In this document: positions 1,533-26,797 of the stretch, in pieces
Numbering within the stretch: position 1 is the first letter of the stretch
Layout: each line of letters opens with the position of its first letter
Source of the DNA: a virus
IMG/VR virus record: IMGVR_UViG_3300030389_004692
Location: 1 to 30,847 of that record
Length of the DNA: 30,847 bases
Strand: one strand, 5' to 3'
Program-made: the position numbers and the translations under genes
The notes under the pieces: model-generated
The model's database searches: none
What the model was told of the DNA's origin: nothing
The model's input: the letters and a program-made list of their open reading frames with translations, nothing else

Positions 1533-2411
1533 TTAGTTAGTCTTACAAACGACATAATTTTCTTTAATAAAATCTATAACATCTATTTTAGGATGCCAAT
1601 TTAATAAATCCTTGGCTTTTGTATCTGTGCAAAGCGTGTCTTTCATCTCACCAAGTCTAACCTCAATATATTTTGTTGGGTAGTTTTCACCAAAAGCATC
1701 TGCGATTTCATTAACTGAATAATTTTTGCCTCTGCCTAACTCAAATAACTCACCACTCACATCATGTATTGACTCCCCGCACCTGATTAAACCATCTACA
1801 ATATCATCCACATGTGTAAAATCTCTTCTTTGTTCTCCATCACCCGTAATAGTTAATTGTCTACCCTCTTCAAATAATTTCTTAAATATGCCTATTAATG
1901 TACAATATTCTCCTTCTGTAAGTTGATGTGAACCATAAACATTATAAAATCTACATATTGCCGTTGGTAAGTCGTATACTTTATTGTATAATTCAATCAA
2001 CTGTTCACCTATTGACTTACTTAGTGTGTAAGGATTAGCAAACTTGTCACCATTAGAAGAGGATGAACCAGCATAAATAATAGGTATATTATATCTTCTT
2101 GCCCATTCCAATACATTTAATGTTGATGTTACATTTGCGTGATGTGTATGTACAGGATGTTTAAATGAAGGTTGTATTCTAGCTATTGCTGCTAGATGAA
2201 ATATCAAATCAGGTTTGGATATAAAGAAGTCGTAGTTTGAGGTTTCAACTAGGTCAACATCAAAATATTGAACACCTTTTTGTTGTATCTCATTTTCTCT
2301 TAGACCAGTAGAGTAATTATCTAATGAGACGACTTTGTGTCCGTCACTTAACAATCTTTTGATTAAATTAGTACCAATGAATCCGGCACCACCTGTCACT
2401 AAGACTCGCAA
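1533..2411 (-). CDS. NAD-dependent sugar epimerase/dehydratase (extended SDR)
   Basis: 292 aa, full length for a compact extended SDR acting on nucleotide sugars. The N-terminus has the NAD site TGGAGFIG (about 6-13) and an acidic end to strand 2 (SLDNYSTG). The active site shows a serine cluster (GSSSS, near 116) and YTLSK (YxxxK) near 128. The closest familiar members are UDP-glucose/GlcNAc 4-epimerases, but substrate cannot be told from the sequence. The start is TTG (2409-2411), since the Rossmann motif begins at once and no ATG is available; it overlaps the preceding kinase/GT2 gene by 13 bases. It is the last gene of the glycan island in transcription order. Confidence 0.85.
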   Translation of the reverse strand: MRVLVTGGAGFIGTNLIKRLLSDGHKVVSLDNYSTGLRENEIQQKGVQYFDVDLVETSNYDFFISKPDLIFHLAAIARIQPSFKHPVHTHHANVTSTLNVLEWARRYNIPIIYAGSSSSNGDKFANPYTLSKSIGEQLIELYNKVYDLPTAICRFYNVYGSHQLTEGEYCTLIGIFKKLFEEGRQLTITGDGEQRRDFTHVDDIVDGLIRCGESIHDVSGELFELGRGKNYSVNEIADAFGENYPTKYIEVRLGEMKDTLCTDTKAKDLLNWHPKIDVIDFIKENYVVCKTN

Positions 2412-4165
2412 ACGATTAACTCTTCTTCATATGTTTTTAGTGATTTAATATAAAACTTAAATATATCATATTCCATCTCACCTATCTCTCCACTATCTTG
2501 TAGCATTTTTGATAAGTTAACTAACACTTGAAAGTTTTCATTGTTTAATTTATCGGTGTCGAACTCGACGCATATATCATGTAATTCTGACACTTTACTG
2601 TTACCGTACAACTTTATTCTTTCATTTAAATTATATTTTGTATTTGGTTGTTCTTCTGCTGTGTACTCACTTAGGGCATCATGATTTCTTAAATCTAAAT
2701 ATATCGTATTACACCAAGGTTCTAACTCATATAACATTTGTTTATCACAATTATAAGCAACGAACCCAATATCATATTTAGGTGGAACTATTGGTTTCAA
2801 ATACTCATCATGTTCAACCATATGTCCCCACTTACGAATGAAGTTACGAGTTGACCTAAGATTCTGAGCTAACCACTCCGATGATTCTCTACCTTTCATA
2901 AAGACTTGACCTGCTGGATTTCTCATAGCTCCATCTTTAAATCTACTACCTCTACAAGTCATATGATATACATAACCTTGCCATGTCTGTATTGTCTCAT
3001 AACCAGCCAACACGAACCTATTAAAGATATCAGAGTCTTCTTTTGATTGAGGAGCATACAACGGATCATGTCCACCAATACTTGTGAAATCATCTTTGTA
3101 TATAGCCCAAGGTGCAAATATACCTTCGGTGAGTTTATCTTCACCAGTATTATATTCTTCAAGAAAACTCATTAAACTCAACTCATCAAACTCTTCAGGT
3201 TCGATACCGAAGTCTTTTATTATTTTCTCAGGACCTTCAGGATGTAATGGTGGTTCTATACGAGTAGCAGATACTACTTTACCTCGTTCCAAATGTTTTA
3301 GAACTTCCTCATCCATATCAGGACAAGCGTACATATCAGCATGATAAATCATTACGATGTCGTTTGTAGCATAGTCATTTATTAATGTATCATAAAGTAT
3401 TGTATGACCTAATCTTGTAGGACCTTCATTACGGTGTATCTTTACATTCTTATCTTTTTCGGCAATCTTTTGCATCCACTCCCAAGTGCCATCATCAGAG
3501 AAATCGTCTGCCCAACATATTTCGTGTCTGTATCCTAAGTTTTTTCTGATAGAGTTGTAACTCCACTTCAAATACTTTAGGTTATTTCTGCTGGGTTGGA
3601 TGAAACTTATAACTCTATTATCCATTTTTTTTCTCCATATTTTTTGTAATTCTGTATAGTAATAATCAGGTTTAACTTTAGCATTATGTTTACTTATTTT
3701 ATTTAACTCATCAATATTATAAACACTTTCTAAATCAATTAGACTGAGTTCACCACTTTCAGTCCTTATAACATTAGATGCCACCAAATCATAGAAGAAC
3801 ATTTTTGTCTTTTTAGCTCTATCTAATACCTTTTCGTAAAACTCTTTTGGTATCTCATCAAACTCTTTACCTAATGGAGTTCCACCTTTTGTTGCGTAAC
3901 CCACGATTTCATCATTCAATTTTGGATTAATAATTACCGAATGTAATGCTGGTGCTAACTCATCAAAGAATCCCAATTGAAGAGCCCTTTGAAAATTTTC
4001 TCTACGACAATAATCATCATCAAATATCTTATAGTATAAATCCTTCTCTTCATCGTGTAGAACCTGTCTACCATGATTTATACCATCAACTACTCTACCA
4101 GCCTTATCTAACACCATCCTACAATAAGTAGTGTCTATATCATCAATCTTTATCTTTGACATCAT
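2399..4165 (-). CDS. Kinase-like domain fused to GT2 glycosyltransferase, 588 aa
   Basis: Three parts are visible. Residues 1-180 resemble a small protein-kinase or aminoglycoside-phosphotransferase fold: YYKIF (Lys46), a catalytic-loop-like D126LVASN131 and a DLE triplet (144-146) in place of DFG. Residues 181-430 are a GT-A family 2 glycosyltransferase: SFIQPSRNNLKYLKWS at the start, ADDFSDDGT near 219 and the metal-binding DxD variant HADMY near 276. Residues 430-588 are of unknown type. At the junction an internal ATG (3623-3625) is preceded by GGAG and seven A residues, so a separate GT2 product of about 408 aa may also be made. The first ATG (4165) and the adjacent one (4162) share an AGGAG site. 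Overlaps its neighbours at both ends. The GT2 call is firm; the kinase call is moderate. Confidence 0.8.
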   Translation of the reverse strand: MMSKIKIDDIDTTYCRMVLDKAGRVVDGINHGRQVLHDEEKDLYYKIFDDDYCRRENFQRALQLGFFDELAPALHSVIINPKLNDEIVGYATKGGTPLGKEFDEIPKEFYEKVLDRAKKTKMFFYDLVASNVIRTESGELSLIDLESVYNIDELNKISKHNAKVKPDYYYTELQKIWRKKMDNRVISFIQPSRNNLKYLKWSYNSIRKNLGYRHEICWADDFSDDGTWEWMQKIAEKDKNVKIHRNEGPTRLGHTILYDTLINDYATNDIVMIYHADMYACPDMDEEVLKHLERGKVVSATRIEPPLHPEGPEKIIKDFGIEPEEFDELSLMSFLEEYNTGEDKLTEGIFAPWAIYKDDFTSIGGHDPLYAPQSKEDSDIFNRFVLAGYETIQTWQGYVYHMTCRGSRFKDGAMRNPAGQVFMKGRESSEWLAQNLRSTRNFIRKWGHMVEHDEYLKPIVPPKYDIGFVAYNCDKQMLYELEPWCNTIYLDLRNHDALSEYTAEEQPNTKYNLNERIKLYGNSKVSELHDICVEFDTDKLNNENFQVLVNLSKMLQDSGEIGEMEYDIFKFYIKSLKTYEEELIVCES

Positions 4166-4871
4166 TAAACTCCTTAAATATAACTTCAGATGGTATATAA
4201 CATTTTAAATCCTTAAACCTTCTCATTCCATTATCAAAATCATAATAACCTTCATAAAAATTTGGCAGATGTCTTTTTCTAAAAGGTATATCGTGTGTAC
4301 AACTCTCCCCCTTTATTAAAAACTCTTCTAATGTTTCAATAAAAAAATCAGTTCTACACATCATATCCATAGACAACCTTTTATGTGGCGCATGTTTGCC
4401 TGAATAAAAATACCCATACTTCATTTTTTCATAACCAGGCGATGGAGTTAAAGCAAACGGCGCATAACCCTCAATATATTTTTTATCAAGATAATGACCT
4501 ATTTTAGACAAAAACATCCAATCCAAATCATTATCAAAAAACTCATTTAAAGTAGACTCCATATGTTCTTTTGAACAATTGACCTCCATATCTTCACATA
4601 TAAACATAACATAAGGTGTTTTTACTTCCTTAACCATAGCCAGTGTAACTAATGCCCAATCTTTAGTCAAATCATTATAAAAAGATATATTTGGAATGTT
4701 TTTTAAATAGTGATCTTTAATAACTTCGAAATTATCATTATTAGAATTATAGTTTGCATAAATATTAATTTCAGAAAAAGTTTCTCCTAATTTAACAGAG
4801 TTCCTTTTTACAACTTCCAACCTCGATGGTTGTGTACAAATGAAATTTTGCACTAGACTAAACATTTTCAT
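4143..4871 (-). CDS. Probable GT-A glycosyltransferase, 242 aa
   Basis: The N-terminus (FSLVQNFICTQPSRLEVVKR) and the segment TPYVMFICEDMEV near 103-115 fit a GT2-type GT-A fold, with EDM in the place of the metal-binding DxD. Later residues (WMFLSKIGHY, FFIETLEEFL) are consistent with the acceptor half. It is short for family 2 but near complete. The product sits between a sugar epimerase and the kinase/GT2 fusion and overlaps both (14 and 23 bases). Donor and acceptor sugars cannot be inferred. An acceptor role for a surface or virion glycan is likely from context. Confidence 0.65.
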   Translation of the reverse strand: MKMFSLVQNFICTQPSRLEVVKRNSVKLGETFSEINIYANYNSNNDNFEVIKDHYLKNIPNISFYNDLTKDWALVTLAMVKEVKTPYVMFICEDMEVNCSKEHMESTLNEFFDNDLDWMFLSKIGHYLDKKYIEGYAPFALTPSPGYEKMKYGYFYSGKHAPHKRLSMDMMCRTDFFIETLEEFLIKGESCTHDIPFRKRHLPNFYEGYYDFDNGMRRFKDLKCYIPSEVIFKEFNDVKDKD

Positions 4872-5802
4872 AATAATCCAAATACCAGTTACAAGTTCTG
4901 TCTAAACCATCATCGATACTGACAGAATCTATGTAATGTCCTTTACTTATGAGTAAACCCATATCAGGACATCTTCTATCTACTGAACCTTGTGGTGGTT
5001 CTTCTAAAGTTAAAGAGTCTGGTTTATAATTACACACAGAAAACATTTTTTCTACTAAGTCTCTAATTTTTAATTCTTTGCCAGAACCGATATTGAATAC
5101 TATATCTTCACTACTATCTTCCATAACAAATTTTATTTGATTGACGGCGTCTTCTATGTGACAAAAAGAACGAGTTTGATTATAGCCATATATTGTAAAT
5201 GGATTCTCTTTATCAAATATTCTTTTAGTAACTTGTGGTATTACATGCTCGAATCCCATTCTCGCTCCATAGATGTTGTGAGGTCTGACTATTTTCACAT
5301 CAATGTCGCTCATTCTATTGTAATTTATGAATAACAGTTCACCAAATATTTTACTACCGCTATAAGAAAATCTTGGATTATGGATGTCATCGACTGTCAT
5401 TTCTATTTTTTCAGGTGTCGGTATAGGTATTTCTTTATTAGCACAGTATGTTTCAGAGGATGAAGTCGATAGTATTTTAGGAATGTTATTTTCTAAACAC
5501 CAATCTAATATGTTTATATTGCACAACGTATTAACTCTTAATACCTTATCTGGTATCTTATAGAAATTACCAGTACCATTAATTGCTGCAAAGTGATACA
5601 CACAGTCGTAATCGGTATCCAATTTAATTAGTTGTTGCTTGTCTGTCAAGTCGATTTCAATTATGTTTATACCTTCAATAAACTTGTCCACTTTGCCTCT
5701 AAAGTTATTATCACATATAGTGACATCATATCCTTGTTCACTTAAATCAACCGCCATATGGGAACCAATAAATCCAGTTCCTCCTGTTACCAATACCTTC
5801 AT
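4858..5802 (-). CDS. NAD-dependent nucleotide-sugar epimerase/dehydratase (extended SDR)
   Basis: 314 aa, the usual length. NAD-binding TGGTGFIG at about 6-13, acidic strand-2 end (ICDNNFRG), the FAAINGTG segment near 72, serines in STSSSETY near 118, and the catalytic YSGSK (YxxxK) near 148. The C-terminal half has RPHNIYG and SFCHIEDAV, typical of GDP-mannose 4,6-dehydratase or UDP-glucuronate 4-epimerase-type SDRs. It follows the nucleotide-sugar dehydrogenase gene with a 4-base overlap, so the two may act in one pathway, for example oxidation of a UDP-hexose and epimerisation or decarboxylation of the product. That pairing is inference. Confidence 0.85.
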   Translation of the reverse strand: MKVLVTGGTGFIGSHMAVDLSEQGYDVTICDNNFRGKVDKFIEGINIIEIDLTDKQQLIKLDTDYDCVYHFAAINGTGNFYKIPDKVLRVNTLCNINILDWCLENNIPKILSTSSSETYCANKEIPIPTPEKIEMTVDDIHNPRFSYSGSKIFGELLFINYNRMSDIDVKIVRPHNIYGARMGFEHVIPQVTKRIFDKENPFTIYGYNQTRSFCHIEDAVNQIKFVMEDSSEDIVFNIGSGKELKIRDLVEKMFSVCNYKPDSLTLEEPPQGSVDRRCPDMGLLISKGHYIDSVSIDDGLDRTCNWYLDYYENV

Positions 5803-6596
5803 TCTTTTCTCATCCCTTTTGGCACTGTTATTATGTATTTCTTATTTTCTTTCAAAATGTTCTCAAAAAATTCTACATCAATTCCATTTGTTTTGCAAAA
5901 ACTATCCATAGCTTTAGTATCTTTCGGTAAACACACTCCACCAAATCCTCTGAAATTCTTACTACAATCTAAATAAATTCCATTGATATGGTTTCTTTTT
6001 TTTATTGCATTTTTTACATTATCATATGAGACACCCAACTCAGAGCAAACCTCGAAGAAACTGTTAGCAAATGTGATTAGAGTAGCATTGTAAATGTTAC
6101 TGAAATACTTACAAACTTCTGCCTCAGTAGGACTAATCATAACAAATTTTTTAGGATAATAGCCATGTGACTTTTTAACTAATTTAAAATCTTTTTTCTT
6201 ATCAACACCAACGATACACACATCGTGATTTACTATGAAGTCTGATATTGCACATCTTTCTCTTAAAAATTCAGGAACAAATCCAAGTCTAAGGTTTGGG
6301 AATTTATTCGAAAGCTTATTCGTTGTGCCAGGCTCTACTGTAGATTTTATAATCAATAGTCCTTCATAACTTATGTTAGATAAGTCCTCAACTACAGACT
6401 CAACTATGTCAATATTGCAACTACCATCTTCTTTTGGTGGTGTAGGAACACAAATGTAACAAATATCAGTTCTCGATACATTTTTTACGGTGGTATCTAA
6501 TTTAATATCATGACATATTACGTCATGACCTAGCTCTTCGAATCCTGTCTTGATAGCTGAACCGACAACACCCAAACCAATTACGCCGATTCTCAT
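5799..6596 (-). CDS. UDP-glucose/GDP-mannose dehydrogenase family, lacking C-terminal domain
   Basis: Enzymes of this family oxidise a nucleotide sugar twice to a uronic acid using NAD. Visible are the Rossmann motif GLGVVG (7-12), the PEFLRE motif near 113, the lysine-asparagine helix (CKYFSNIYNAT) and the catalytic-cysteine motif GFGGVCLPKD with Cys222. The protein ends at 265 aa, about 25 residues after the point where the central dimerisation helix ends, so the C-terminal substrate-binding domain (bringing the usual length to 400-450 aa) is absent. The stop overlaps the next gene, so this is not an obvious frameshift. All catalytic residues I can check are present. It may need a partner for nucleotide binding or use a smaller substrate. 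Confidence 0.8.
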   Translation of the reverse strand: MRIGVIGLGVVGSAIKTGFEELGHDVICHDIKLDTTVKNVSRTDICYICVPTPPKEDGSCNIDIVESVVEDLSNISYEGLLIIKSTVEPGTTNKLSNKFPNLRLGFVPEFLRERCAISDFIVNHDVCIVGVDKKKDFKLVKKSHGYYPKKFVMISPTEAEVCKYFSNIYNATLITFANSFFEVCSELGVSYDNVKNAIKKRNHINGIYLDCSKNFRGFGGVCLPKDTKAMDSFCKTNGIDVEFFENILKENKKYIITVPKGMRKE

Positions 6597-7183
6597 TGAA
6601 AAATTTCCATTTTAGATAAGTCAGGCCAATCAGATAAAACCCACTGTCTTGGTTTTGTTTCTATAGCATTTGGTAGTTTCTCCAAACCTAATTCAGCAGT
6701 TTCTGGAGTCATATAGTAGTGATAACCCATTGTTGAGATGTTTTGTGTTGCCCAAGGAATGTCAGGTAATCTTCCATCATAGGACATTCTTTTGAGTTTA
6801 TCTGCAGAATCTTTGTCATCTGTTAGTATCATTCCACCTCTTCCTAAATTTAAATGCTTTCTAAACTGAAAACTCAAACACATAAAATGATTTGGCAAAT
6901 AACTGTCCCTTTTCCAACTCACTGCTGAATCTATGATGTTAGTACCACCTATTAAATAGTAATCAACCCAATCTTCATCTTTCCAAATTAACTTGATTCC
7001 TAATTTTTTAGATAACATTGGAACAGAAATATAAGTATGTCTTGGTACTTCCATATAAGATGCATCTAAATGTCTTAAACATAATTCTATGGCATGGGTG
7101 CAACAATCAACTGAAACTGCATATGGTGCACCATAAAAATCTGCTATCCTATTCTCAAAATCTGTAACTACTTTAAAACTCAT
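6593..7183 (-). CDS. DegT/DnrJ/EryC1-type aminotransferase, half length
   Basis: DegT-family enzymes put an amino group on a keto-sugar nucleotide using PLP. Here the N-terminal large domain can be followed: substrate loop PRHTYISV near 47, Asp85 at the PLP nitrogen position (IDSAV), and the lysine motif SFQFRKHLNLGRGG with Lys109 as the expected Schiff-base residue. The protein ends at 196 aa, against about 370 for the family, and the small C-terminal domain is missing. The frame is closed by a normal stop that overlaps the next start (ATGA). It may be a reduced enzyme, a remnant, or a protein with a different role. Neighbours are a methyltransferase upstream and a nucleotide-sugar dehydrogenase downstream. 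Confidence 0.75.
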   Translation of the reverse strand: MSFKVVTDFENRIADFYGAPYAVSVDCCTHAIELCLRHLDASYMEVPRHTYISVPMLSKKLGIKLIWKDEDWVDYYLIGGTNIIDSAVSWKRDSYLPNHFMCLSFQFRKHLNLGRGGMILTDDKDSADKLKRMSYDGRLPDIPWATQNISTMGYHYYMTPETAELGLEKLPNAIETKPRQWVLSDWPDLSKMEIFQ

Positions 7184-7722
7184 TTTTTACACTCCACATT
7201 TAAACTCATCAAAGTTCCCTTTTCTTTATTCATATGAGGTAAATACGCCTGTGAATGGTCATCAAATTGTGAGTGTTCTGTTTCTCTCCAATTATAATAA
7301 TCCACCTCTCTCATACCTACACTCTCTAAAACAGTTTTTAAACTATTGAAATCATATGTAGTTCTATGATAGATTGTTTTGTCTCCCATTGGCATCTTTC
7401 CATATAGTAACCCAACAAAACTATCTAAATCATACGATTCATAATCCTTAATATATAAGGATGCTATTTTTGAAAAATTAGGAACGGCCAATCTCATGAC
7501 TCCATCTAATTTAAAAACCTCTCTCCATCTTTTCAATAAAGGAACAACTTCTTCCCTATCAAAATATTCAATAAAATGAGAAGCGTAAATTAAATCCACA
7601 GAATTATTTTTGTATTCGGTAAGAAAAATATCATTAGAATCAATATGTTCGTAACTACCACCATCTATGTGAATCCAACCTTTCCCAAAATCTCTCCACC
7701 CACAACCTATATTAAGCTTCAT
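7180..7722 (-). CDS. SAM-dependent methyltransferase, class I, 180 aa
   Basis: The protein starts at once with the SAM-binding motif I, KLNIGCG (2-8), followed by an acidic strand-2 end (WIHIDGG). Motif around VDLIYASHFIEYF (about 43-55) and the post-motif LLKRWREVFKLDGVMRLAVP match the small Methyltransf_11-like proteins found in polysaccharide clusters. Likely role is O- or N-methylation of a sugar or intermediate. It overlaps the preceding cupin gene by 11 bases and the following DegT-like gene by 4. Confidence 0.8.
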   Translation of the reverse strand: MKLNIGCGWRDFGKGWIHIDGGSYEHIDSNDIFLTEYKNNSVDLIYASHFIEYFDREEVVPLLKRWREVFKLDGVMRLAVPNFSKIASLYIKDYESYDLDSFVGLLYGKMPMGDKTIYHRTTYDFNSLKTVLESVGMREVDYYNWRETEHSQFDDHSQAYLPHMNKEKGTLMSLNVECKK

Positions 7723-8128
7723 CTATAAATACCTTATCGTTTTCCTGCCCTTTATAAGGTCCTGTTTTATATTCATAAACTATAGTATCTTCTTCTAAAA
7801 TTTCATAAGTATGACCACCTTGAAAAGTTACTGAAATATCACCAAAATTTAAAATTTTTTGACTTATTATCGTATTATCAAAATCATACATAGTCACTTT
7901 GACACTTCCCTTTATTACTATCCAAGATTCTTGAGCTATTACTTCTTTTTCGCCAGCCTTCCATATATGACTGTGTGGTCTGAATTTTTTTTTATTTAAT
8001 CTCATAGACGAAACCTGTAAAAATTCATCATCCGGTGCTATATCGACTCTACCCTCAGGTATATTAGAAAATCTATTTACAACACCTAATAAAGTAGATG
8101 GTTTTTCTTTTGAATATATTTTCTCCAT
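7712..8128 (-). CDS. Cupin-fold protein, WbuC/FdtA-like, 138 aa
   Basis: Single cupin domain. Motif 1 is represented by FRPHSHIWKAG near 49-59 and the strand ESWIVIKGSVKVTMYD; motif 2 by GDISVTFQGGHTYEIL near 96. The glycine turns are well kept. Cupins of this size in glycan clusters include sugar-nucleotide isomerases (FdtA/QdtA) and WbuC-type proteins. The pattern PHSHxW also occurs in metal-binding cupins. It stands eight bases after the aminotransferase gene and overlaps the methyltransferase gene. Fold is fairly sure; reaction unknown. Confidence 0.7.
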   Translation of the reverse strand: MEKIYSKEKPSTLLGVVNRFSNIPEGRVDIAPDDEFLQVSSMRLNKKKFRPHSHIWKAGEKEVIAQESWIVIKGSVKVTMYDFDNTIISQKILNFGDISVTFQGGHTYEILEEDTIVYEYKTGPYKGQENDKVFIDEA

Positions 8129-8136: not shown

Positions 8137-9249
8137 TCATAATTTAATAATTTTATCATTAATTGTCAAGTCTTTTATAAAATCAGTTTTGCTTAGATTT
8201 GGTCCTACAGTCATTCTTAACCAATTTTTTCTATTATCAAATGGTATTTTTGCACCGGCTTTATAAGTTACATCAGAATACTCATCAAGAATTTTACATA
8301 ATTGTTCATTATCATCTTTACTATTTATGTGAATCCAATTACAATAACCACCTATTACATCATAACCGGCTTTTTTAAAATACTCAATTAAACGACATTT
8401 TTCAAAATTAGTATCTCTTATATAATCTTCCACTATTTTATAATTGTCTAATATATGACAGGCAAACTTAGCAGCTGGTCCTGTTATCTCGTGCATCATT
8501 CTAAATTTCATCAATTTTTCAATCATAAATTTATTTGATATGACATAACCCACTCTTACACCTGCTGCTCCTTTAGCTTTACTGAATGTCCTACTCGTCA
8601 TAACATTGTCATATAATAAACCTGTTTCTATACAGGTGTCTTCTTGTCTTTCTACAAACTCTGCATATGCCTCATCAATCAAAACAGGTATACCCATTTC
8701 TTGTGTCTTCTCGAATATTTCTTTCATTTCATGACTTGACTTAAAATCGCCTATAGGATTATTAGGATTAGCTATAATGATTAAAGATGTATTTTCATTG
8801 ATTCTATCCAACATTACATCAATAGGCCAATATAGTCCTTCTTCTTGTGGCCAATCTGAATCATGTTCATATGAGACTTGTCTGAACCTAGCTTGATATA
8901 ATTTCGAGTAAACTTCATACATTGGAAAACAAGGAAATGTAGATAAAACCTCCGAACCTGGAGTAACAAATACGTCAAACATTGTCCTTATTCCTATATC
9001 GCTGCCCGGTGTAATAAATACGTTTTTGTCATTTACTTTATAATGTTCACTAAGTCTTGTCTTTAACTGATTGACATATGGATAAGTAATGAAATCAGTT
9101 TGTTTGATTGAATCAATCCAATCATCCCAAAACTTTTTAGGAAATTCTGTTATTCTCTCACTTTGGTCAAGTCTCCATTTATACTGAGACTTATCTTTAT
9201 CAACCTCGTATCTGACTATATCGTCAAGATACTTTTTGTATTTTATCAC
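8137..9249 (-). CDS. PLP aminotransferase, class I/II (HisC-like), 370 aa
   Basis: All landmarks of a fold-type I aminotransferase are present: NPNNP (161-165), the cofactor aspartate in IDEAYAEF (Asp192), the PLP lysine in SRTFSKAKG (Lys224) and GVRVGY with Arg232. The layout is that of histidinol-phosphate aminotransferase. No other histidine gene is nearby, so a role in the surrounding glycan pathway is likely. In Campylobacter capsule clusters HisC-like enzymes make small amino-alcohol phosphates; a similar job is possible here but unproven. The start is GTG (9247-9249), overlapping the upstream stop by one base (TAGTG), with AGGAG ten bases upstream. Confidence 0.85.
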   Translation of the reverse strand: MIKYKKYLDDIVRYEVDKDKSQYKWRLDQSERITEFPKKFWDDWIDSIKQTDFITYPYVNQLKTRLSEHYKVNDKNVFITPGSDIGIRTMFDVFVTPGSEVLSTFPCFPMYEVYSKLYQARFRQVSYEHDSDWPQEEGLYWPIDVMLDRINENTSLIIIANPNNPIGDFKSSHEMKEIFEKTQEMGIPVLIDEAYAEFVERQEDTCIETGLLYDNVMTSRTFSKAKGAAGVRVGYVISNKFMIEKLMKFRMMHEITGPAAKFACHILDNYKIVEDYIRDTNFEKCRLIEYFKKAGYDVIGGYCNWIHINSKDDNEQLCKILDEYSDVTYKAGAKIPFDNRKNWLRMTVGPNLSKTDFIKDLTINDKIIKL

Positions 9250-13308: not shown

Positions 13309-13309
13309 T

Positions 13310-20116: not shown

Positions 20117-20913
20117 ATAGATTTAAAAAATCTATCAGCATAGATTTTTATTCCTCTTCTTCTTAGGTAATCTCTTAAATCTTCTGAGACATCATTAGTA
20201 TGCCCTTCGATTGTCTTATCATCTATGTTATATATAGTCTTAAAATTACTCTGATTTAAAAATATTTTTCCGTTCTTATAATTAGTTTCTATGTTACGAG
20301 TTATCCCCTTATGTTCACATAATACTTTCCAATCTGAAAGAATCTTCTTTACCATTGATTCAATTTGCGTATCTTTGAGTGTTTTCGGGTATATATTTTC
20401 CTTAATAATTTTACACGGTATACCAGCAGCTAAACACCCATCAGGTAAACTCTTATTAACTAATGAGTTAGTTCCAATCACAACATTATTACCAACAACA
20501 ACATTAGGTAACACAATACTTCTAGCTGGTAACCAAACATCATTACCTATCTTAACAGGTCCAAACTCCGATGGAAAACCCTTTGTTACATCTAACCAAG
20601 CACCGTGAGTCCAAATCATTACATCAGCTCCAATGCCACAGTTGTCTCCTATTTCTACAGGTTCAGATGGATTAATTATTGTATTCTCAAATATACCGAC
20701 TCCATTACCAATCTTTACTTTTGAATTAGGTCCTGTGTTCCCACCTCTTCCTATTTCTACCCCATCCGCCATATATAGGTGATTACCTATGATTAACTCT
20801 TTACATTTTATTTTTACATTATTACCTATTCTAGAATATTTACCTATCGTAACCTTTTCACAATCTATAAAAGTATTCTCTCCTATTATAACCGAACTAT
20901 GTATATTACGCAT
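20113..20913 (-). CDS. Left-handed beta-helix acyltransferase (hexapeptide repeat), 266 aa
   Basis: The first 180 residues are hexapeptide repeats (VIIGENTFI, VTIGKYSRIG, LIIGNHLYMADGVEIG, PVEIGDNCGIGADVMI, VVVGNNVVIGTNSLV), as in sugar O- or N-acyltransferases of the LbetaH class. HGAWLD near 125 may supply the catalytic histidine. The last 90 residues are not part of the repeat and look helical. The start at ATG 20911-20913 is preferred since AGGAG lies just upstream; an ATG 12 bases earlier is also open. It follows a DxD glycosyltransferase gene with an 8-base overlap. Confidence 0.85.
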   Translation of the reverse strand: MRNIHSSVIIGENTFIDCEKVTIGKYSRIGNNVKIKCKELIIGNHLYMADGVEIGRGGNTGPNSKVKIGNGVGIFENTIINPSEPVEIGDNCGIGADVMIWTHGAWLDVTKGFPSEFGPVKIGNDVWLPARSIVLPNVVVGNNVVIGTNSLVNKSLPDGCLAAGIPCKIIKENIYPKTLKDTQIESMVKKILSDWKVLCEHKGITRNIETNYKNGKIFLNQSNFKTIYNIDDKTIEGHTNDVSEDLRDYLRRRGIKIYADRFFKSI

Positions 20914-21673
20914 ACAACTCCTCATAAGTTCTTTTCATCCAATAATCAACATTTCTGTTTGATGGATTTGGTGGTATGGCATTAAAGTGATAAACCCAAC
21001 CCGATTTATACATATTTTTTAAAGAGTCATCCCACCAACTATAGTCTTTAATCCACAATAAATTTTTCTTAAACATATCTTGTAAATTGTAACATTCTGG
21101 TAATAAGTTTAGCTCTAAATTATTTTTCTCTCTAAGAAAGTTAATACAAGTTTGGTCTCCTGAATTGTATTTACCCAACACCCTAAGTAATTCATCTTTA
21201 TTTGAATTATACCAATCTATTATCTCAGCTAAATACTCCTTATGAGATTCATTAAATATCTGAAATCCTCCATTTATATATCTCCACAATTTAAACGTAT
21301 CGGTTTGAAAGAATTTAGGTCCCCATTGAGAAATACTTCTATGTTGCCATTCGTAACATCCATTGTTCAAAACAGCAGAATACTTATCATTTGTTTCATC
21401 AAAAAAGTTAGGACAATTAGGGTGGACAATAGTATCGGCATCGACCAATAAGACTTGACTGTATTTGATATTATTAGATTCTAATAAATCAAACACATAA
21501 TATCTTTGCCATACAATTGGCATGTGTTCAACAGGAAGCAACAAATCCTCTAATACAAATAGCTCACAATTGTGTTTATTAGACCAATTTTTCCAACTCT
21601 CTACCGATAAATGATATGGAGAACTTCTATCATTACCTAAATCAATATTAGGGATAAATACTATATTTTTCAT
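20906..21673 (-). CDS. DxD glycosyltransferase, GT8-like, 255 aa
   Basis: The metal-binding motif VLLVDADTIVHPN (Asp78, Asp80) follows a strand exactly as in GT-A enzymes, and the acceptor half has YINGGFQIFNESH and SGDQTCINFL, both typical of GT8/GT34-like folds (the GDQ segment holds catalytic contacts). A late HFN near the C-terminus (WVYHFNAIPP) is like the HxxG metal ligand region of GT8. Donor unknown. Overlaps the GT2-fusion gene by 4 bases. Confidence 0.75.
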   Translation of the reverse strand: MKNIVFIPNIDLGNDRSSPYHLSVESWKNWSNKHNCELFVLEDLLLPVEHMPIVWQRYYVFDLLESNNIKYSQVLLVDADTIVHPNCPNFFDETNDKYSAVLNNGCYEWQHRSISQWGPKFFQTDTFKLWRYINGGFQIFNESHKEYLAEIIDWYNSNKDELLRVLGKYNSGDQTCINFLREKNNLELNLLPECYNLQDMFKKNLLWIKDYSWWDDSLKNMYKSGWVYHFNAIPPNPSNRNVDYWMKRTYEELYA

Positions 21674-23262
21674 AAATATTCAAATCCCCACTTTTCATAT
21701 TCAAGTTCTGAGAATGGATATCCTTTATATGATTCCATCTCATAAAATCTTTTTATACCTTTCCAATCATTTATATTTTTTTTATCATTCTTGTTTTTTC
21801 TACTAAAATAAAATCTAGGTTCTAAAAACTTATAGCCCTCAAATTCAAAGGTATAGTTCTGAATTATATCATCGTCTGATTTTGCACCATTAATCATAAA
21901 CTTTTCATAATTAGGTGAAAATATTTCAACATTACCAACTTTATGATATTCATTAGTCATATTAAGGTCACTTCGCAACTTAGAGCTTATTATAATATCT
22001 AAATCATCATTTTGACGAATTCCCATAATAGCTAAAATGCTGGATTGAGTTAGACAATACTGAGACTTATCCAATCGTTTTAGTTGTTTCATACTCCTCA
22101 AATTTGATAATGGATTAGTTGCTCTAATTAAATTATCACCGTCCCACGGTACATTGTATATTTTTTCTTCTTTCATATAAAATGGTATGTAAGATTTTCC
22201 TGATATTAACCTACCTAACATAGCACAAGCTCTGTGATAACTGTGTTTTATAAAACCATTATCAAACTCTACTGGATGTTCTTTTAAAAAAGTTTTAATC
22301 TCATTATCGCTCATCCTCTCCAAAGAATTATAATATTCTTCTGTCATATTATCCCAACCTAATTCGTGGTGGTCAGCTACATTTTTTCTGAACTCCCCTA
22401 TCATGCAATTAAAGTATTGCCAATTCTTAGGATTTAACATAAACCTATTTGTGCGAAGATTTTCAGGCACAGAGTAAAACATTAATACATCCTTAACAGT
22501 TTTTAAAGTGCCATTTTGTGTAATTATCTCTTTTCCACCACCACCTTGAGCAAACTCCATATTTAAAAAGTAATCTAATGATATTGGTTTGAACCTATCT
22601 TTTTTTTTAATTTCGTCCGAACTCCCTAAGTTCATACCCATGCTTATCTCTTCATTATAAAATTTATTTTGTTCTACCTGTCTTTCTATTGTTTTCGGGT
22701 GAACTATAGAATACTTTTGTTCCATTGGCAAATGAGCATAAGTCTGAAAGCCTGTTAGTTGTTCGTGAACTGGTTTTTCCCAACGAATATTTGGTCGATT
22801 ACGAAAGATACGACCTTGCCAATCAGGATAGTTTATCCATCCTTTTTCATTCATTGTGTATCCATACATTTTACAATGTTCCTTAGTTATCCCATCCACT
22901 GTATTTATTCTTGGTACAAAAATTAAATCAACCTCATTACCCTCAAGTATCTCATGTATGTCTTTCAAAAACCAATGAGATACCATTTCATCCGCATCTA
23001 AATTAAAACTGTAATCACCAGTGCACATACTTTTAAGGTAGTTTTTTTGACTTGCAAAATCCTTCAATAAATTTCGTTGCTCTAATATAACACCTTTAGC
23101 AGAAGAATAATAATCTAAAATAGCTTTGGTTTTTTCCTCAGTAGAATAATCATCTAATATAACAATCTCATCTTGTGGTTGTTTATACTTTACTAAAAAT
23201 TCTAATAACTTTTCAAGAGTGTTGGTTTCATTATGAACCAAGATAGAATAACTAATTTTCAT
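21670..23262 (-). CDS. GT2 glycosyltransferase fused to nucleotidyltransferase-like domain, 530 aa
   Basis: Residues 1-220 form a family 2 glycosyltransferase: SYSILVHNETNTLEK at the start, EIVILDDYSTEEKT near 32 and the DxD-like NLDADEM (87-93). Residues from 404 on look like a minimal nucleotidyltransferase: ILAIMGIRQNDDLDIIIS, with Asp420 and Asp422 as the expected metal pair, and a later FEGYKFLEPRFYFSRKNKND segment like the region following it in MNT-type enzymes. The middle, about 220-400, is unassigned. Fusion of the two activities in one chain is unusual. GT2 is firm, the second domain moderate. Confidence 0.75.
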   Translation of the reverse strand: MKISYSILVHNETNTLEKLLEFLVKYKQPQDEIVILDDYSTEEKTKAILDYYSSAKGVILEQRNLLKDFASQKNYLKSMCTGDYSFNLDADEMVSHWFLKDIHEILEGNEVDLIFVPRINTVDGITKEHCKMYGYTMNEKGWINYPDWQGRIFRNRPNIRWEKPVHEQLTGFQTYAHLPMEQKYSIVHPKTIERQVEQNKFYNEEISMGMNLGSSDEIKKKDRFKPISLDYFLNMEFAQGGGGKEIITQNGTLKTVKDVLMFYSVPENLRTNRFMLNPKNWQYFNCMIGEFRKNVADHHELGWDNMTEEYYNSLERMSDNEIKTFLKEHPVEFDNGFIKHSYHRACAMLGRLISGKSYIPFYMKEEKIYNVPWDGDNLIRATNPLSNLRSMKQLKRLDKSQYCLTQSSILAIMGIRQNDDLDIIISSKLRSDLNMTNEYHKVGNVEIFSPNYEKFMINGAKSDDDIIQNYTFEFEGYKFLEPRFYFSRKNKNDKKNINDWKGIKRFYEMESYKGYPFSELEYEKWGFEYL

Positions 23263-23717
23263 TGAATAAATTGTGTGTTTATTTGTGTAACTTTCATCGA
23301 GGTTAATTTACTAAGTTTATAGGCACGATATGCTTCTTTAAAAAATTTATCAGATGAAATAATATCACTATAAAATCTTGAGGTGGACATTGCAGACCTT
23401 TTCTTTGGGTTAGAAATCTGAATCCTAAAATAGTCATCAGTCAAATTAATTAGATTTTCAACTTCATCTAATTTAGTTTTTTTAAAGTCAATCACTTGAA
23501 ATAATTTTTTTAACTTAGTTGGGTTAAGATAATTTAAGTTCAAACCTTCAATATTTTTTGTGTTATTATTTTGATGTAAAAAAAGTAGTATGGGACGAGG
23601 ATCTACGACACCAGTTTCAGCATAGTTAAAAGTAACTATCATACCAGGTATTAGCCTACGAGATGGAACTGTTTGGACTGATTTAATTATTCGTCTGTTG
23701 TTGTATCTTCTCGCCAA
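23259..23717 (-). CDS. Conserved T4-like phage protein, unknown function, 152 aa (TTG start)
   Basis: The start is TTG (23715-23717) with GGAGAAG six to seven bases upstream, inside the end of the zinc-ribbon gene (35-base overlap). The N-terminus is basic (ARRYNNRR), followed by LIPGMIVTFNYAETG and a beta-rich stretch with HQNNNTK and EGLNLNYLNP. The pattern with xGLNLNYL is one I associate with small proteins of marine T4-like phages, possibly virion or assembly proteins, but I cannot name it. It is not an obvious glycan enzyme and may belong to the phage core. Confidence 0.6.
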   Translation of the reverse strand: MARRYNNRRIIKSVQTVPSRRLIPGMIVTFNYAETGVVDPRPILLFLHQNNNTKNIEGLNLNYLNPTKLKKLFQVIDFKKTKLDEVENLINLTDDYFRIQISNPKKRSAMSTSRFYSDIISSDKFFKEAYRAYKLSKLTSMKVTQINTQFIQ

Positions 23718-24084
23718 TTATCTTCTCCATTTTTTCTACCATTTTGTAAGCATCAGTAAATGTCGGAACTATTACTTCTGTTTTAGGATCTTGATGAGCA
23801 TAAACCCTCCACTTTAATTTTTTATCCTCTACCATCGGAACAACTTGATAATTTGCTGTAGCGAATACGGATGGTGCCCAATACCTATGATTACCAGTCT
23901 CAACACATACATCCTTAAAGTCTTTAGGAAATGGTTTAATATGAGTCTTCATTTCATTATTAGAAGCAAACCCACACGATAAACACTGCATATTCTGTTC
24001 AGTATCACCTAATAAAACCATTGACTCCTCTATATCACTACAAGTGTCTAACGGGCACTTTACTCTTAACACAAAATCTTCCAT
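23683..24084 (-). CDS. Zinc-ribbon protein, unknown function, 133 aa
   Basis: Four cysteines in the first 40 residues (VKCPLDTCSD and QNMQCLSCGF) form a likely zinc ribbon. The rest has NHRYWAPSVF and a basic, aromatic middle without a recognised motif. It begins one base within the stop of the preceding GT4 gene and its end carries the ribosome-binding site of the next gene. Small zinc-ribbon proteins are common in T4-like phages; a part in transcription or in virion assembly is possible. No function assigned. Confidence 0.65.
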   Translation of the reverse strand: MEDFVLRVKCPLDTCSDIEESMVLLGDTEQNMQCLSCGFASNNEMKTHIKPFPKDFKDVCVETGNHRYWAPSVFATANYQVVPMVEDKKLKWRVYAHQDPKTEVIVPTFTDAYKMVEKMEKIIGEKIQQQTNN

Positions 24085-25439
24085 TAAGTTACCTTTTTTA
24101 ATTTTGGTAATTTAATTTTTGCTGGTTTTTGTTTTTCATCATTTATTTTTTTCAGTTTTGGTAACTTTAGATTAACTGATTGAGGTAATCTAGTCAATAT
24201 ATCATCAACAATACCATTAAATTTTTCTGCCATCGCCTTTAAAGAAAACTCTCTTCTATTTCTTTTACCCAAACGAATAGCTTTCTTTTGTATTAATTTT
24301 CTTTTTTTATGAAAAGTTCTAATCTTTCTAACTACATCGGCCTCGTTAACATCAAACCACTTGGAAGGTTCTACAATGATTGGCGTCCACAAAGCTGATT
24401 TGGGCACTTCTTTTAAAAATCCGTCTATTAACATGGATTCTGAATCAGTTAAAAAGTCAAGATGTCCACTCCATTTTGATGCTATCACAGGTAAGTCACA
24501 GCAACTCGCTTCTAACATTGGTCTTCCAAATCCCTCACCATGAGTGCAAGTAATAAAAGCACCAATCTTTGGGTGGTTATAAAGTGTTGACATTTCTTCG
24601 ATAGTAAAATCACCATGTATTAAATAAATATTAGGTAAATCCACACCTGTAAACATTCTTTGAACTTCTTTTATTTTCTTTTTAGTATCTTCTCTATCAA
24701 GAATACTAAAATTAGCACCGTTAGTCTTAAGAACAAGTGCTGGTGGGTTAGGAATATTAGCAAAAGCTTTTAGAAAACACTTTATCATTACACCAATATT
24801 TTTTCTATCTTCACCGAAACCACCTTTACCCCATTGACCGACATGAAGATAGGCATACTCTTCTTCAATAAGTTTACTTAACTCATTATATACACTTTTT
24901 TCTAATTGATGTTTTTCTTTCGGATAATATATGTCGGTGTCTACCCCCTCGAACAACACACTAATTGGTTTCTCATTTTTGACCTCTCCAGCTTTTTGTT
25001 TTTTGCCATTAGGTAAGTCTTCCATCTTATCATAAGTGCATTTATTAAACGTATCTGCTGTAAATTTAGATGGCACTATATTGAAGTTCATACGATTCAT
25101 ACCATCCAAAAATTCAGGTGAAACCACATTTGTTTCTACACCAGCAGTTATACCAATATTAACTTTTGCACCGGTGGCAAACTCATTTGGTATTCTGATG
25201 TCAATAAGAATATCTGGTTGACCTTGTATTTGTTCTTGAGTTACAAAAGTATCTAATAACTTTTTATGTCTCAAAACATCTGGTCTTAGATGATTTCGTG
25301 GTGTGTTTCCCCATTTGACATCAATACATTTAATATCCAAATCTTCTCTATCCATAATTGAATAAAAAAGAGAACGAGCATGGTCACCGTAACCACTACG
25401 AGTGTTGAAAGGTGCAATCATTAACACATTTCGTTTCAT
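24084..25439 (-). CDS. Glycosyltransferase family 4 with basic C-terminal tail, 451 aa
   Basis: Two Rossmann parts of a GT-B enzyme are visible. The first begins VLMIAPFNTRSGYGDH; the second has YLHVGQWGKGGFGEDRKN and the donor-binding E-x7-E motif in HGEGFGRPMLEASCCDLPV near 305. The last 30 residues repeat KLPKLKK twice with a Lys/Pro/Asp/Glu linker, a strongly basic tail not normal in GT4. It forms a pair with the GT4 gene before it (4-base overlap). Paired GT4 genes of this kind also occur in cyanophages, as far as I recall. Acceptor may be a protein, DNA or a lipid-linked sugar. Confidence 0.85.
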   Translation of the reverse strand: MKRNVLMIAPFNTRSGYGDHARSLFYSIMDREDLDIKCIDVKWGNTPRNHLRPDVLRHKKLLDTFVTQEQIQGQPDILIDIRIPNEFATGAKVNIGITAGVETNVVSPEFLDGMNRMNFNIVPSKFTADTFNKCTYDKMEDLPNGKKQKAGEVKNEKPISVLFEGVDTDIYYPKEKHQLEKSVYNELSKLIEEEYAYLHVGQWGKGGFGEDRKNIGVMIKCFLKAFANIPNPPALVLKTNGANFSILDREDTKKKIKEVQRMFTGVDLPNIYLIHGDFTIEEMSTLYNHPKIGAFITCTHGEGFGRPMLEASCCDLPVIASKWSGHLDFLTDSESMLIDGFLKEVPKSALWTPIIVEPSKWFDVNEADVVRKIRTFHKKRKLIQKKAIRLGKRNRREFSLKAMAEKFNGIVDDILTRLPQSVNLKLPKLKKINDEKQKPAKIKLPKLKKVT

Positions 25440-26797
25440 ACTACCTCCATATGATATTTAGGTTGTGGTTTCCAATTATCGAAAGCACCATTCATAGAAT
25501 CGATAAAGTTTTGTCCCATTGCTTTTGAAGTCATTTCATTTTCCTCACAGAATTTTATACCTAATTGTCCAATTCTTTTTCTATCATTTTTATTCAAATC
25601 ATAAACTTTTTTTATTTGAACGGCAGCATCTGTGGGTTTACATCTATCATCAAAAATATAGGGTGTCATTGGAGAGCCTTGTAAAGACATGTTTGATGGA
25701 TAGACAGGAAATACCCACTCACCATGCTCTGTATAAGTACCATCATGATTAGAACCTAATTCAATGTAATCATCAGGCGTCAAAAATTTATCATGTTTTT
25801 TAAATCCACATTGGTCTTGTAAACCACCAGTAACATTAACGATAATTGGTGTCCCCACATTAAGTGCCTCACAACTACCTAATCCAAATCCCTCATTACT
25901 TGCTAAATTAATGTAAACATCGGCTGTATTAAATAATAAATTCATTTCATCATCATTAAAAGGTCTATTATCGGTATTATAAGTAAAACAAATATCGTAG
26001 TCAGGACACAAATGTTTGTGAACTCTTGGTAAGTCTGTTCCATTTTCATCTATGGGTGAACAATGAAATATTAAAACACATTCCCTTCTTTGCTCTGGTG
26101 TAAGTTCATCCATAAAGTATTTATACGATAGTAAAACATCACCAGGTTGTTTTCTTCTTATATTTCTGTTACTATAAAGTATCTTAAATTTTTTCTCAGC
26201 AATACCATGTTTAGAATCAAAATCTAGTAAAGATGTATTGTCATCTTCAACCTGGTAAAACCTTCGATTCGAAATACCGTGTGGTACATAAGTTATTTGC
26301 CAATCCTCATACTCACCTAATAATCTTTTATTAATACCATAAGTTTGTTTCGATATAGCCATCAGTAAGTCGGAACTTCTGTAATAATTTATATTGTATT
26401 GTGGATCTGGTAAATCATCCCAAATGTTATAATAAAAAATTGGAATTTTTCTACGAATCTCAGATTCCATATTATAAAACCAGATCCAAAAACGCGGATC
26501 AGTATAGTGGAGTATGGCATCTGGTTTTTCTAAAGCCATTACCTCTCTAAGAATATCTTCGTTTCCATATCCACTGACTGGATATATTCTAAGGTATCCA
26601 TTTTTTATTCCAAAATCTTTCTCAAGACCTTCAGACATATCAACAATCTTACCTTCCTCTGGATGTTTTATAGCACCACCAATTTGAACCCAATCGTATT
26701 CATGGAGTGTTTCAAACACAATATCTTTAGATACTGTTGCAACACCACTGTGCATTCTTAAGTCATCTGACATTAATAATATTTTTTTCTTAGCCAT
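25436..26797 (-). CDS. Glycosyltransferase family 4, 453 aa
   Basis: GT-B enzyme. Start ILLMSDDLRMHSGVATVSKD is the glycine loop of the acceptor domain. The donor domain contains FKILYSNRNIRRKQPGD and NEGFGLGSCEALNVGTPI, the E-x7-E motif. Two tryptophan-rich segments (PRFWIWFYN and WDDLPDPQYN) line the acceptor side. It precedes a second GT4 gene, and the two probably work in sequence on the same glycan. Overlaps the 80-aa gene by 8 bases. Confidence 0.85.
   Translation of the reverse strand: MAKKKILLMSDDLRMHSGVATVSKDIVFETLHEYDWVQIGGAIKHPEEGKIVDMSEGLEKDFGIKNGYLRIYPVSGYGNEDILREVMALEKPDAILHYTDPRFWIWFYNMESEIRRKIPIFYYNIWDDLPDPQYNINYYRSSDLLMAISKQTYGINKRLLGEYEDWQITYVPHGISNRRFYQVEDDNTSLLDFDSKHGIAEKKFKILYSNRNIRRKQPGDVLLSYKYFMDELTPEQRRECVLIFHCSPIDENGTDLPRVHKHLCPDYDICFTYNTDNRPFNDDEMNLLFNTADVYINLASNEGFGLGSCEALNVGTPIIVNVTGGLQDQCGFKKHDKFLTPDDYIELGSNHDGTYTEHGEWVFPVYPSNMSLQGSPMTPYIFDDRCKPTDAAVQIKKVYDLNKNDRKRIGQLGIKFCEENEMTSKAMGQNFIDSMNGAFDNWKPQPKYHMEVV

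Follow-up and report, generated by a model that had tools for sequence, protein, structure and literature searches.

What does a T4-related aquatic phage make with some 25 kb of sugar genes, and on which acceptor is it made? The question comes from an uncultured phage contig, positions 1-30,847 of IMGVR_UViG_3300030389_004692; this 30,847-nt stretch is referred to below as the window. Its ORF map places exactly 30 consecutive reading frames, g05 to g34, on the minus strand from 1533 to 26797, all intact and most overlapping by a few bases, in agreement with the roughly 30 overlapping genes counted by an earlier sequence-only reading. Of the 30, about 28 have a clear or plausible connection to sugars; the other two, g31 and g32, are conserved phage genes and not sugar genes. 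The island's flanks are phage. Genes for the gp44-type (phrog_168) and gp62 (phrog_225) clamp loader lie at one end and an HNH endonuclease gene at the other, and the flanks also match a ClpP-type protease and a PD-(D/E)XK exonuclease. Two of these flanking genes are:

27679..28542 (-), g38, PD-(D/E)XK exonuclease of the conserved right flank (phrog_69; 57 related viral loci)
359..865 (-), g01, HNH endonuclease of the conserved left flank (phrog_10822; 89-99% identity in the genus)

The island genes are intact and under purifying selection, with dN/dS of 0.07-0.28 for the better-aligned ones, and are not the broken remains of a decaying locus. Recognizable domains, recurrence in relatives and purifying selection together exclude a chance origin. 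The same gene order was not encountered in a bacterial chromosome either: in a limited scan, bacterial relatives of g22 were at most 41% identical, and g21 was never adjacent to them.

The framework of the island consists of genes or domains that keep their place among relatives; two extensions joined to them, and g05 at the left end, are listed alongside:

25436..26797 (-), g34, GT4-type glycosyltransferase, fixed anchor (PF00534)
24084..25439 (-), g33, second GT4-type glycosyltransferase, fixed anchor (PF00534; 67-88% in the genus)
23683..24084 (-), g32, small cysteine-rich conserved phage protein, fixed (60-80% in the genus)
23259..23717 (-), g31, gp2/DNA end-protector-like phage protein, fixed (phrog_429, weak at E 3e-4; 60-90% in the genus)
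22642..23262 (-), GT2 domain at the g30 N-terminus (aa 1-207), the cassette's right-hand bracket (PF00535)
21670..22641 (-), g30 C-terminal extension (aa 208-530), where a shared foreign block begins (segment identity)
3626..4165 (-), extension at the g06 N-terminus (aa 1-180), kinase-like by motif only (no Pfam match)
2399..3625 (-), GT2 domain at the g06 C-terminus (aa 181-588), the cassette's left-hand bracket (PF00535)
1533..2411 (-), g05, SDR epimerase (PF01370)

The anchor g34 is 75-87% identical within the genus, 45% to its counterpart in Flavobacterium phage immuto and about 43-54% in Microcystis phage Mel-JY01; g33 is 37-38% identical to its counterparts in these two phages. The best PDB match of the g34 profile is the chlorovirus GT4 B736L (3oy2, E 2e-12), which is suggestive only because GT4 is a very large family. 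The glucosyltransferases AGT and BGT of T4 are not among the PDB matches of the g34 and g33 profiles (E 0.01). In the g32 slot, immuto and the records G002-G004 carry a similar Cys-rich protein, as judged by eye.

Is this framework filled with the same genes in every lineage? Gene maps of 16 contigs of the window's genus-level group indicate that it is not. Both flanks are conserved across all 16, mostly at 70-100% identity, and the sugar genes between the GT2 domains of g30 and g06 are largely exchanged. The flanks are thus conserved and the cassette variable, with an island size of 11.9-30.1 kb where both ends are present. At 60% identity or more, at most two of the window's cassette genes are common to any one genus contig, and four to five are shared with G002-G004, the core genes of which are mostly 34-62% identical to those of the window. 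The first 207 residues of g30 are 73-94% identical to a free-standing genus protein of 207-213 aa (61-68% in G019), and their identity to G002-G004 is 42-52%. The genus homologues lack residues 208-530, which are 57-73% identical to G002-G004. Compared segment by segment, g30 is itself a recombinant gene. The GT2 domain of g06 is 64-97% identical in the genus and 72-93% in G002-G004, and its N-terminal extension occurs only in the window and G002-G004 (51-68%). Proteins like g05 vary in position among genus islands. Sharing within the genus is graded, some pairs having 10-17 cassette genes in common, and replacement is therefore partly piecemeal.

Between the brackets, the window carries the following genes, besides five treated below:

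20906..21673 (-), g29, putative GT-A-like glycosyltransferase with a DxD motif (motif only, no Pfam match)
20113..20925 (-), g28, hexapeptide acyltransferase (PF00132)
19487..20116 (-), g27, PIG-L/LmbE-type deacetylase (PF02585, E 4.6e-6, 0.6 bit below cut-off)
18564..19490 (-), g26, putative GT-B glycosyltransferase (motif only; 78% in G020, 43-46% in other contigs)
17638..18567 (-), g25, putative GT9/heptosyltransferase-like protein (motif only; 73% in G002/G003)
17333..17641 (-), g24, small HAD-type phosphatase (phrog_1238, E 3e-25; HAD assigned by motif; 64-69% in six contigs)
16380..17336 (-), g23, ATP-grasp ligase (PF15632, PF02655; PRK12767 family)
13964..14302 (-), g20, cytidylyltransferase-like protein (PF01467, phrog_395)
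13310..13837 (-), g19, short HpcH/HpaI aldolase-like protein (PF03328, E 6.5e-5, below cut-off)
12226..13320 (-), g18, putative nucleotidyltransferase (by motif) fused to a HAD domain (phrog_3980, phrog_1238)
11807..12229 (-), g17, phosphodiesterase-like protein by eye (phrog_34507, which carries no function)
10887..11810 (-), g16, putative glycosyltransferase by eye (phrog_13607, which carries no function)
10180..10890 (-), g15, sulfotransferase (PF03567, E 1e-7)
9249..10199 (-), g14, radical SAM/SPASM protein (PF04055, PF13186)
8137..9249 (-), g13, HisC-like aminotransferase (PF00155; hisC 192 bits, below cut-off)
7180..7722 (-), g11, methyltransferase-like protein (PF08241, weak at E 0.0056)
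4858..5802 (-), g08, SDR, 4,6-dehydratase-like (PF01370, E 2e-47)
4143..4871 (-), g07, putative GT2-like protein by eye (no HMM match)

Four glycosyltransferases are firm, GT2 in g06 and g30 and GT4 in g33 and g34, fewer than the "at least seven" first proposed. Five others (g07, g16, g25, g26 and g29) are glycosyltransferase-like by motif and context, without Pfam support; PDB searches with profiles of g25, g26 and g29 returned nothing relevant, and relatives of g29 recur at 39-49% in many cassettes. The rest of the proposed enzyme list largely stands on HMM evidence: SDR enzymes (g05, g08, g21 and g22), dehydrogenase, aminotransferases, ATP-grasp, acyltransferase and sulfotransferase, with weaker matches for the deacetylase g27 and the methyltransferase g11. 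That the set is rich enough to make a complete modified oligosaccharide is not demonstrated.

Several members, including radical SAM g14, aldolase-like g19 and phosphodiesterase-like g17, are not obviously sugar enzymes, and g12-(g11)-g10 and g24-g23 recombine as small modules. Both features would suit a collection of independently useful auxiliary genes, acting in sugar-nucleotide diversion, small-molecule synthesis or host protein glycosylation, in place of one glycan pathway. Such a collection is very improbable given the tight one-strand overlap, the glycosyltransferase brackets fixed in all relatives and the consistent dominance of sugar-type families.

The remaining five cassette genes are:

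15424..16383 (-), g22, PseB/FnlA(CapE)-type UDP-GlcNAc 4,6-dehydratase (PF02719, E 3e-70)
14354..15427 (-), g21, CapF/WbjC-like protein, SDR plus cupin (NF047837, E 9e-59)
7712..8128 (-), g12, putative cupin, partner of g10 (weak cupin match)
6593..7183 (-), g10, half-size ("mini") DegT-type sugar aminotransferase, 196 aa (PF01041)
5799..6596 (-), g09, shortened nucleotide-sugar dehydrogenase, 265 aa (TIGR03026, positions 66-296 of 413)

The g10 product shares the fold and the PLP lysine motif of DegT/DnrJ/EryC1/StrS aminotransferases but has only 196 aa, against about 360-390 aa at full length. Its predicted model (pLDDT 94.8) has GDP-perosamine synthase as best Foldseek match (3dr7, E 1e-10, TM 0.72 on the query), and the PLP lysine, Lys109 in an SFQxxKHL..GRGG motif, is invariant in 27 phage sequences. 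Relatives occur in 136 viral stretches with length kept near 196 aa; g12 accompanies g10 at 68 of the 80 phage loci, in most cases immediately upstream. The mini-DegT family is a ready target for enzymology. The dehydratase g22 is 81-85% identical to its counterparts in G002-G004 and scores 236 bits for PseB, below the equivalog cut-off. Compared with S. aureus Cap5F (2zkl, E 1e-51), g21 keeps the cupin, and the SDR YxxxK is aligned with an FxxxR that is invariant in four phages, so that the usual catalytic Tyr/Lys pair is absent. A CapG-type 2-epimerase (PF02350) was not found in the window and exceeds the cut-off only in G012 and G016. Relative to the CapE-CapF-CapG pathway to UDP-L-FucNAc, the CapE-type dehydratase is therefore present, but the canonical CapF motif and CapG are missing. 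Because the same forms recur in other phages, the short g10 and g09 and the g21 without its Tyr/Lys pair are not products of decay.

Where could the glycan be attached? The sequence-only reading had noted the lack of a flippase, polymerase or export protein, and this is upheld by family search and hydropathy in the window and related records. No multi-pass membrane, priming, flippase or polymerase protein was found in the window's island. Initiating phosphoglycosyl transferases are absent from related records (PF02397, 0/23; PF00953, 0/24; controls positive in 9 and 12 of 14), as is the Wzx flippase (PF01943, 0/23, controls working). None of 506 island proteins from 21 records has two or more hydrophobic segments, a test that gives 6 and 9 segments for the polymerase and flippase of E. 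coli O16. Since exporter, initiating transferase and polymerase are lacking, it is fair to infer that the acceptor can be reached from the cytoplasm; a membrane partner may lie elsewhere in the genome, as the contigs are incomplete.

The absence of membrane proteins fits extension of the host LPS core equally well. LPS-core transferases are soluble, and a phage flippase or priming enzyme is unnecessary for them. Working at the cytoplasmic side of the inner membrane, phage enzymes might add to the host's lipid A-core or lipooligosaccharide; the host's own machinery would export the product, and the altered surface would block co-infection. The heptosyltransferase-like g25 and the kinase-like N-terminus of g06, both by motif only, fit LPS core chemistry, the island's sugar enzymes are similar to enzymes from O-antigen and capsule loci, and host modification is the published reading for pelagimyophage glycosyltransferases (PMC7029224). 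It is nevertheless a doubtful explanation here. Some receptor change suffices for a lytic phage, which has no need of 12-30 kb of ever-exchanged pathway; the same anchors occur in phages of hosts as different as a Flavobacterium and a cyanobacterium; and a membrane-anchored GtrA/GtrB-like protein is found in 0/506 island proteins. The island thus differs from the gtrABC of serotype-converting temperate phages in lacking membrane GtrA flippase and membrane-anchored GtrB, and the match of g06 to the GtrB-like phrog_841 is confined to its GT2 domain.

A second cytoplasmic acceptor would be phage DNA, with the unusual sugars placed on modified bases to evade restriction. The window encodes a "nucleotide modification associated" domain (PF07659) in g40 (29144-29524), found in 14 of 17 records, and a TET-associated glycosyltransferase (phrog_842/TAGT) is encoded near three DNA-methylase-like genes in G001, a member of this genus. 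Glycosylated DNA is known in T4-like phages, such as arabinose in RB69 (PMC6024577). Against this, the TET-associated transferase occurs in G001 alone of 17 records, and G001 has ThyX instead of PF00303. Neither the complete Mel-JY01 genome, which has the anchors, nor any of 14 contigs contains PF00303, the T4-type hydroxymethylase/thymidylate synthase family (the window's own genome is incomplete); this family is present only in immuto, annotated as ThyA. In immuto, which also has the anchors, PF07659 was not found, and 7-deazaguanine DNA-modification genes are present instead. The DNA glycans known so far are small, and decoration by acyl, sulfo and ATP-grasp enzymes would be unusual for DNA. 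DNA is an unlikely acceptor on these grounds.

We rank a virion protein first among the three candidates, ahead of host LPS core and DNA. The region is best read (probability roughly 0.48) as a phage-borne, exchangeable polysaccharide-type locus whose soluble enzymes would assemble a lineage-specific glycan in the cytoplasm, with a virion protein as its most likely carrier. The fixed GT4 genes g34 and g33 and the GT2 domains of g30 and g06 enclose genes for sugar-nucleotide synthesis, decoration and accessory glycosyltransferases; this cassette is probably swapped, in pieces or as a whole, through recombination between phages that are in some cases only distantly related. Host sugar phosphates may be converted to unusual NDP-sugars in the cytoplasm; the fixed transferases could lay down or cap a common core, and cassette transferases with amino, acyl, methyl, sulfo and ligase enzymes would supply the lineage-specific outer part. 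By analogy with chloroviruses, the acceptor may, with less certainty, be a phage structural protein glycosylated before or during assembly, and related phages would therefore display different surface glycans. Tentatively, these would be phages with their own serotypes: genus lineages coating virions with different phage-made glycans, cassettes passing between distant phages, and the g12-g10 module, a phage-made minimal DegT fold, spreading along. Should the glycan sit on the virion, aquatic phages would vary their outer surface as bacteria vary O-antigens, with bearing on adsorption, grazer recognition and phage-phage recombination. If it is on host or DNA, a 12-30 kb investment exchanged between phages still calls for explanation.

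Virus-encoded, mostly soluble transferases with conserved and variable parts have precedents. Chloroviruses glycosylate their capsid with their own, mostly soluble enzymes around a conserved glycan core (PMC5408694), and in Megavirinae clusters of 6-33 genes serve to make the glycans of the virion fibrils, which contain rare amino sugars (PMC10117803). Both are eukaryotic viruses with glycans shown on their virions, whereas for the window phage the glycan is inferred from genes. Bacterial O-antigen and capsule (Wzx/Wzy) loci likewise hold a serotype-like variable cassette between conserved flanks, but the window's island is phage-located and has no priming transferase, flippase or polymerase. 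Hypervariable islands rich in glycan genes are already known in marine T4-like phages; new are the location, the fixed bracketing glycosyltransferases and the widespread half-size phage aminotransferase. The pelagimyophage "host recognition cluster" and cyanomyophage plastic regions (PMC7029224) are also large, variable glycosyltransferase and sugar-gene regions of T4-like aquatic phages that diverge between relatives. The pelagimyophage cluster is found between VrlC and gp14, within the structural region, and has tail fibres, whereas the window's island sits beside gp44/gp62 and the exonuclease, has fixed glycosyltransferase brackets and contains no recognized tail fibre gene in family searches of g05-g34. 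Cyanophages P-SSM2 and S-SCSM1 also encode sugar-nucleotide enzymes and glycosyltransferases in LPS-type sets, which the accessible portions of the source (PMC9602691) do not describe as an exchangeable cassette between fixed glycosyltransferase anchors. That the window's island is such a cassette, beside replication genes, emerges from the comparison of contigs and could not be seen from one sequence. The cultured phages immuto and Mel-JY01 have the same fixed genes and make the question testable. Immuto (NC_055915) shares the order exonuclease-GT4-GT4-small Cys-rich protein-GT2-[cassette]-SDR/GT2, mini-DegT included, but differs in its Flavobacterium host, its anchors (38-47% identical) and its cassette of just 5.7 kb.

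The window covers the full length of a linear IMG/VR virus record of 30,847 bases, in which 44 consecutive genes called by a simple ORF rule (g01 to g44, left to right) all lie on the minus strand. The T4-type clamp loader is represented by g44 (a gp44 match) and g42 (a gp62 match), and the flanks further encode a ClpP-type protease match (g39), a PD-(D/E)XK exonuclease (g38) and an HNH endonuclease (g01). Together with the family-B DNA polymerase of a closely related contig, G001 (46% identity to that of Microcystis phage Mel-JY01, against 30-33% for cyanomyophages), these genes point to a T4-like aquatic phage of an uncultured lineage. The features discussed below are as follows.

1 to ~140, minus strand: first part of a reading frame containing GIGLAANQVG, peptide deformylase-like by eye and severed by the contig end; in Mel-JY01 a deformylase is annotated downstream of the sugar genes
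1533-26797, minus strand: the glycan island, g05-g34
6593-7183, minus strand: g10, a half-size (mini) DegT aminotransferase
14354-15427, minus strand: g21, a full-length CapF-like protein
27281-27697, minus strand: g37, a DprA/SLOG-type (YspA-related) protein adjoining the exonuclease gene and kept at 73-95% in the genus
29144-29524, minus strand: g40, carrying PF07659 ('Nucleotide modification associated domain 1')

The island holds 30 genes, as the sequence-only reading had estimated. Four of them are firm glycosyltransferases, with GT4 domains in g34 and g33 and GT2 domains in g30 and g06, and motifs suggest five more. These four act as fixed anchors, and the sugar genes between the GT2 domains of g30 and g06 are termed the cassette. 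Also inside the island are two conserved phage genes, g31 and g32. Profile searches of the PDB with g25, g26 and g29 returned nothing useful. The AlphaFold model of g06 is poor (pLDDT 49), so a possible kinase-like reading of this protein derives from motifs only.

A scan with g38 recovered 57 viral loci (g38 identity 68-97%), and the larger contigs among them were compared gene by gene; the relatives are contig fragments, except Flavobacterium phage immuto (NC_055915) and Mel-JY01. In the window's group, 16 contigs conserve, mostly at 70-100% identity, the right flank through the N-terminal domain of g30 and, if they reach that far, the left flank, which runs from the g06 C-terminal domain to g01. 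Between these flanks gene content varies. Complete cassettes span 11.9-30.1 kb (17.5 kb in the window), and at ≥60% identity the window has at most two cassette genes in common with any same-group contig. In other pairs the number ranges from zero to about 23, so turnover is a matter of degree. Some contigs nearly duplicate one another or have overlapping content (G007/G013, G008/G009, G014/G017 and G001/G011), which leaves about 12 independent islands. In one subgroup (loci L017-L020), about 1.5 kb of extra sequence separates the homologues of g37 and g36, both conserved and otherwise adjacent.

The brackets themselves recombine. Core genes of another phage group (G002-G004) are mostly 34-62% identical to those of the window; the exception is g40, at 82% even in the distant G002 and G004, where its neighbours mostly fall in the lower range. 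These contigs nevertheless carry g30, g29, g26 to g21, g27 and g06 in nearly the window's order, with g21-g25 at 64-84% identity. Residues 1-207 of g30 are of the type found in the window's genus, whose homologue ends there, and residues 208-530 occur solely in the window and G002-G004. The N-terminal extension of g06 is likewise confined to the window and G002-G004, and its GT2 domain is 64-97% identical by segment across both phage groups. The bracketing genes thus double as the sites at which foreign blocks are joined.

In immuto (2-6A; host LMO8), the gene order is exonuclease, GT4, GT4, small Cys-rich protein, GT2, cassette, SDR and terminal GT2, with a sugar cassette of 5.7 kb that includes a mini-DegT gene; its GT4 genes are gp180 and gp181, and its terminal GT2 gene is gp169. 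Mel-JY01 carries the GT4, GT4, GT2 portion, and g34/g33 homologues also occur in 26-29 of the 80 viral loci listed from a g10 search. Glycan-rich phage islands are already known: hypervariable ones have been published for marine T4-like phages (PMC7029224), and LPS gene sets for cyanophages (PMC9602691). The window locus differs from these in its genome position, in the recombining glycosyltransferase genes that bracket it, in its lack of fibre genes and in its mini-DegT module. The open-access literature searched yielded no description of this locus.

Decay of the island was rejected, since the window genes are unbroken, short enzyme forms are conserved and dN/dS against the best relative is low (0.07-0.28 in the better-aligned island genes). 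These figures are approximate because synonymous sites are near saturation, which places the values of 0.35-0.49 in more divergent pairs beyond interpretation. Of 38 genes, 16 have a Shine-Dalgarno-like motif upstream, versus 8% of random positions; this excess suggests that the genes are translated and makes a typical Bacteroidetes host unlikely. Recent acquisition of the block from bacteria was also rejected: G+C is flat along the window (28-35%), and for g22, the one gene compared with bacteria, the best phage relatives reach 51-85% and bacterial ones at most 41% among the matches listed from two peptide patterns. Among the matches listed in this limited scan, none of the bacterial g22 relatives had g21 beside it.

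At 196 aa, g10 has about half the usual length of a DegT enzyme; profiles of that family align on both sides of an internal deletion, and the protein terminates early. Genes of this type occur in at least 136 viral stretches, of which the 80 listed (L127-L206) show 57-69% identity and are nearly all full length. Lys109, which lies in the PLP-lysine motif, is the same in all 27 g10 sequences compared. The structure is predicted with high confidence (pLDDT 94.8, pTM 0.92) and most closely resembles sugar aminotransferases, among them GDP-perosamine synthase (TM 0.72 by query, 0.40 by target). Judged among viral sequences, g10 is apparently a phage-specific minimal DegT form. In 68 of the 80 listed loci it occurs together with a small putative cupin, g12, often with the methyltransferase g11 between, and by analogy with known ketoisomerase-aminotransferase pairs the two may produce an amino-deoxy sugar. 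Another shortened enzyme is g09, which has no counterpart of the C-terminal domain found in nucleotide-sugar dehydrogenases; its relatives (286-296 aa) are short too. In all four phage copies of g21, the Cap5F SDR motif YxxxK reads FxxxR and the cupin metal motif GxHxH is intact, a pattern suggesting that the CapF reduction step may be absent or altered. A complete CapE-F-G route to UDP-L-FucNAc was rejected on this FxxxR and on the absence of a CapG-type 2-epimerase (PF02350) from the window.

Family searches and hydropathy, a crude membrane test, bear out the earlier remark that export and polymerization functions are missing: no exporter, primer or polymerase was found in the records tested, nor any credible membrane span in the proteins of the window's island. 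This points to an acceptor reached from the cytoplasm or handled by the host, and a virion protein, nascent host LPS core and DNA are all compatible. The LPS core accords with all of the tests made, and DNA has some support from the PF07659 domain of g40 and from a TET-associated glycosyltransferase in G001 (PF20691, phrog_842; L073:984-1850), near three N6_N4_Mtase-like ORFs. However, neither tracks the anchor genes, and one complete relative, Mel-JY01, has no member of the T4-type hydroxymethylase family. The DNA of immuto is expected to contain 7-deazaguanine whatever the role of the island. The PF20691 transferase was not found outside G001 among the records tested. A virion protein is tentatively favoured by analogy, because cassette size and turnover resemble those of an exposed, diversified surface, because the pairing of fixed and variable enzymes parallels virion glycosylation in chloroviruses and Megavirinae (PMC5408694, PMC10117803), and because g34 has a chlorovirus transferase as its best relative of solved structure.

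Just upstream of its DNA polymerase gene, G001 also carries a 922-aa ORF (L070:5937-8705) with TonB-dependent receptor plug and CarboxypepD_reg-like domains, an unexpected phage-borne protein resembling an outer-membrane receptor. ORFs of 921-963 aa are found at the corresponding position in G005, G008 and G012.
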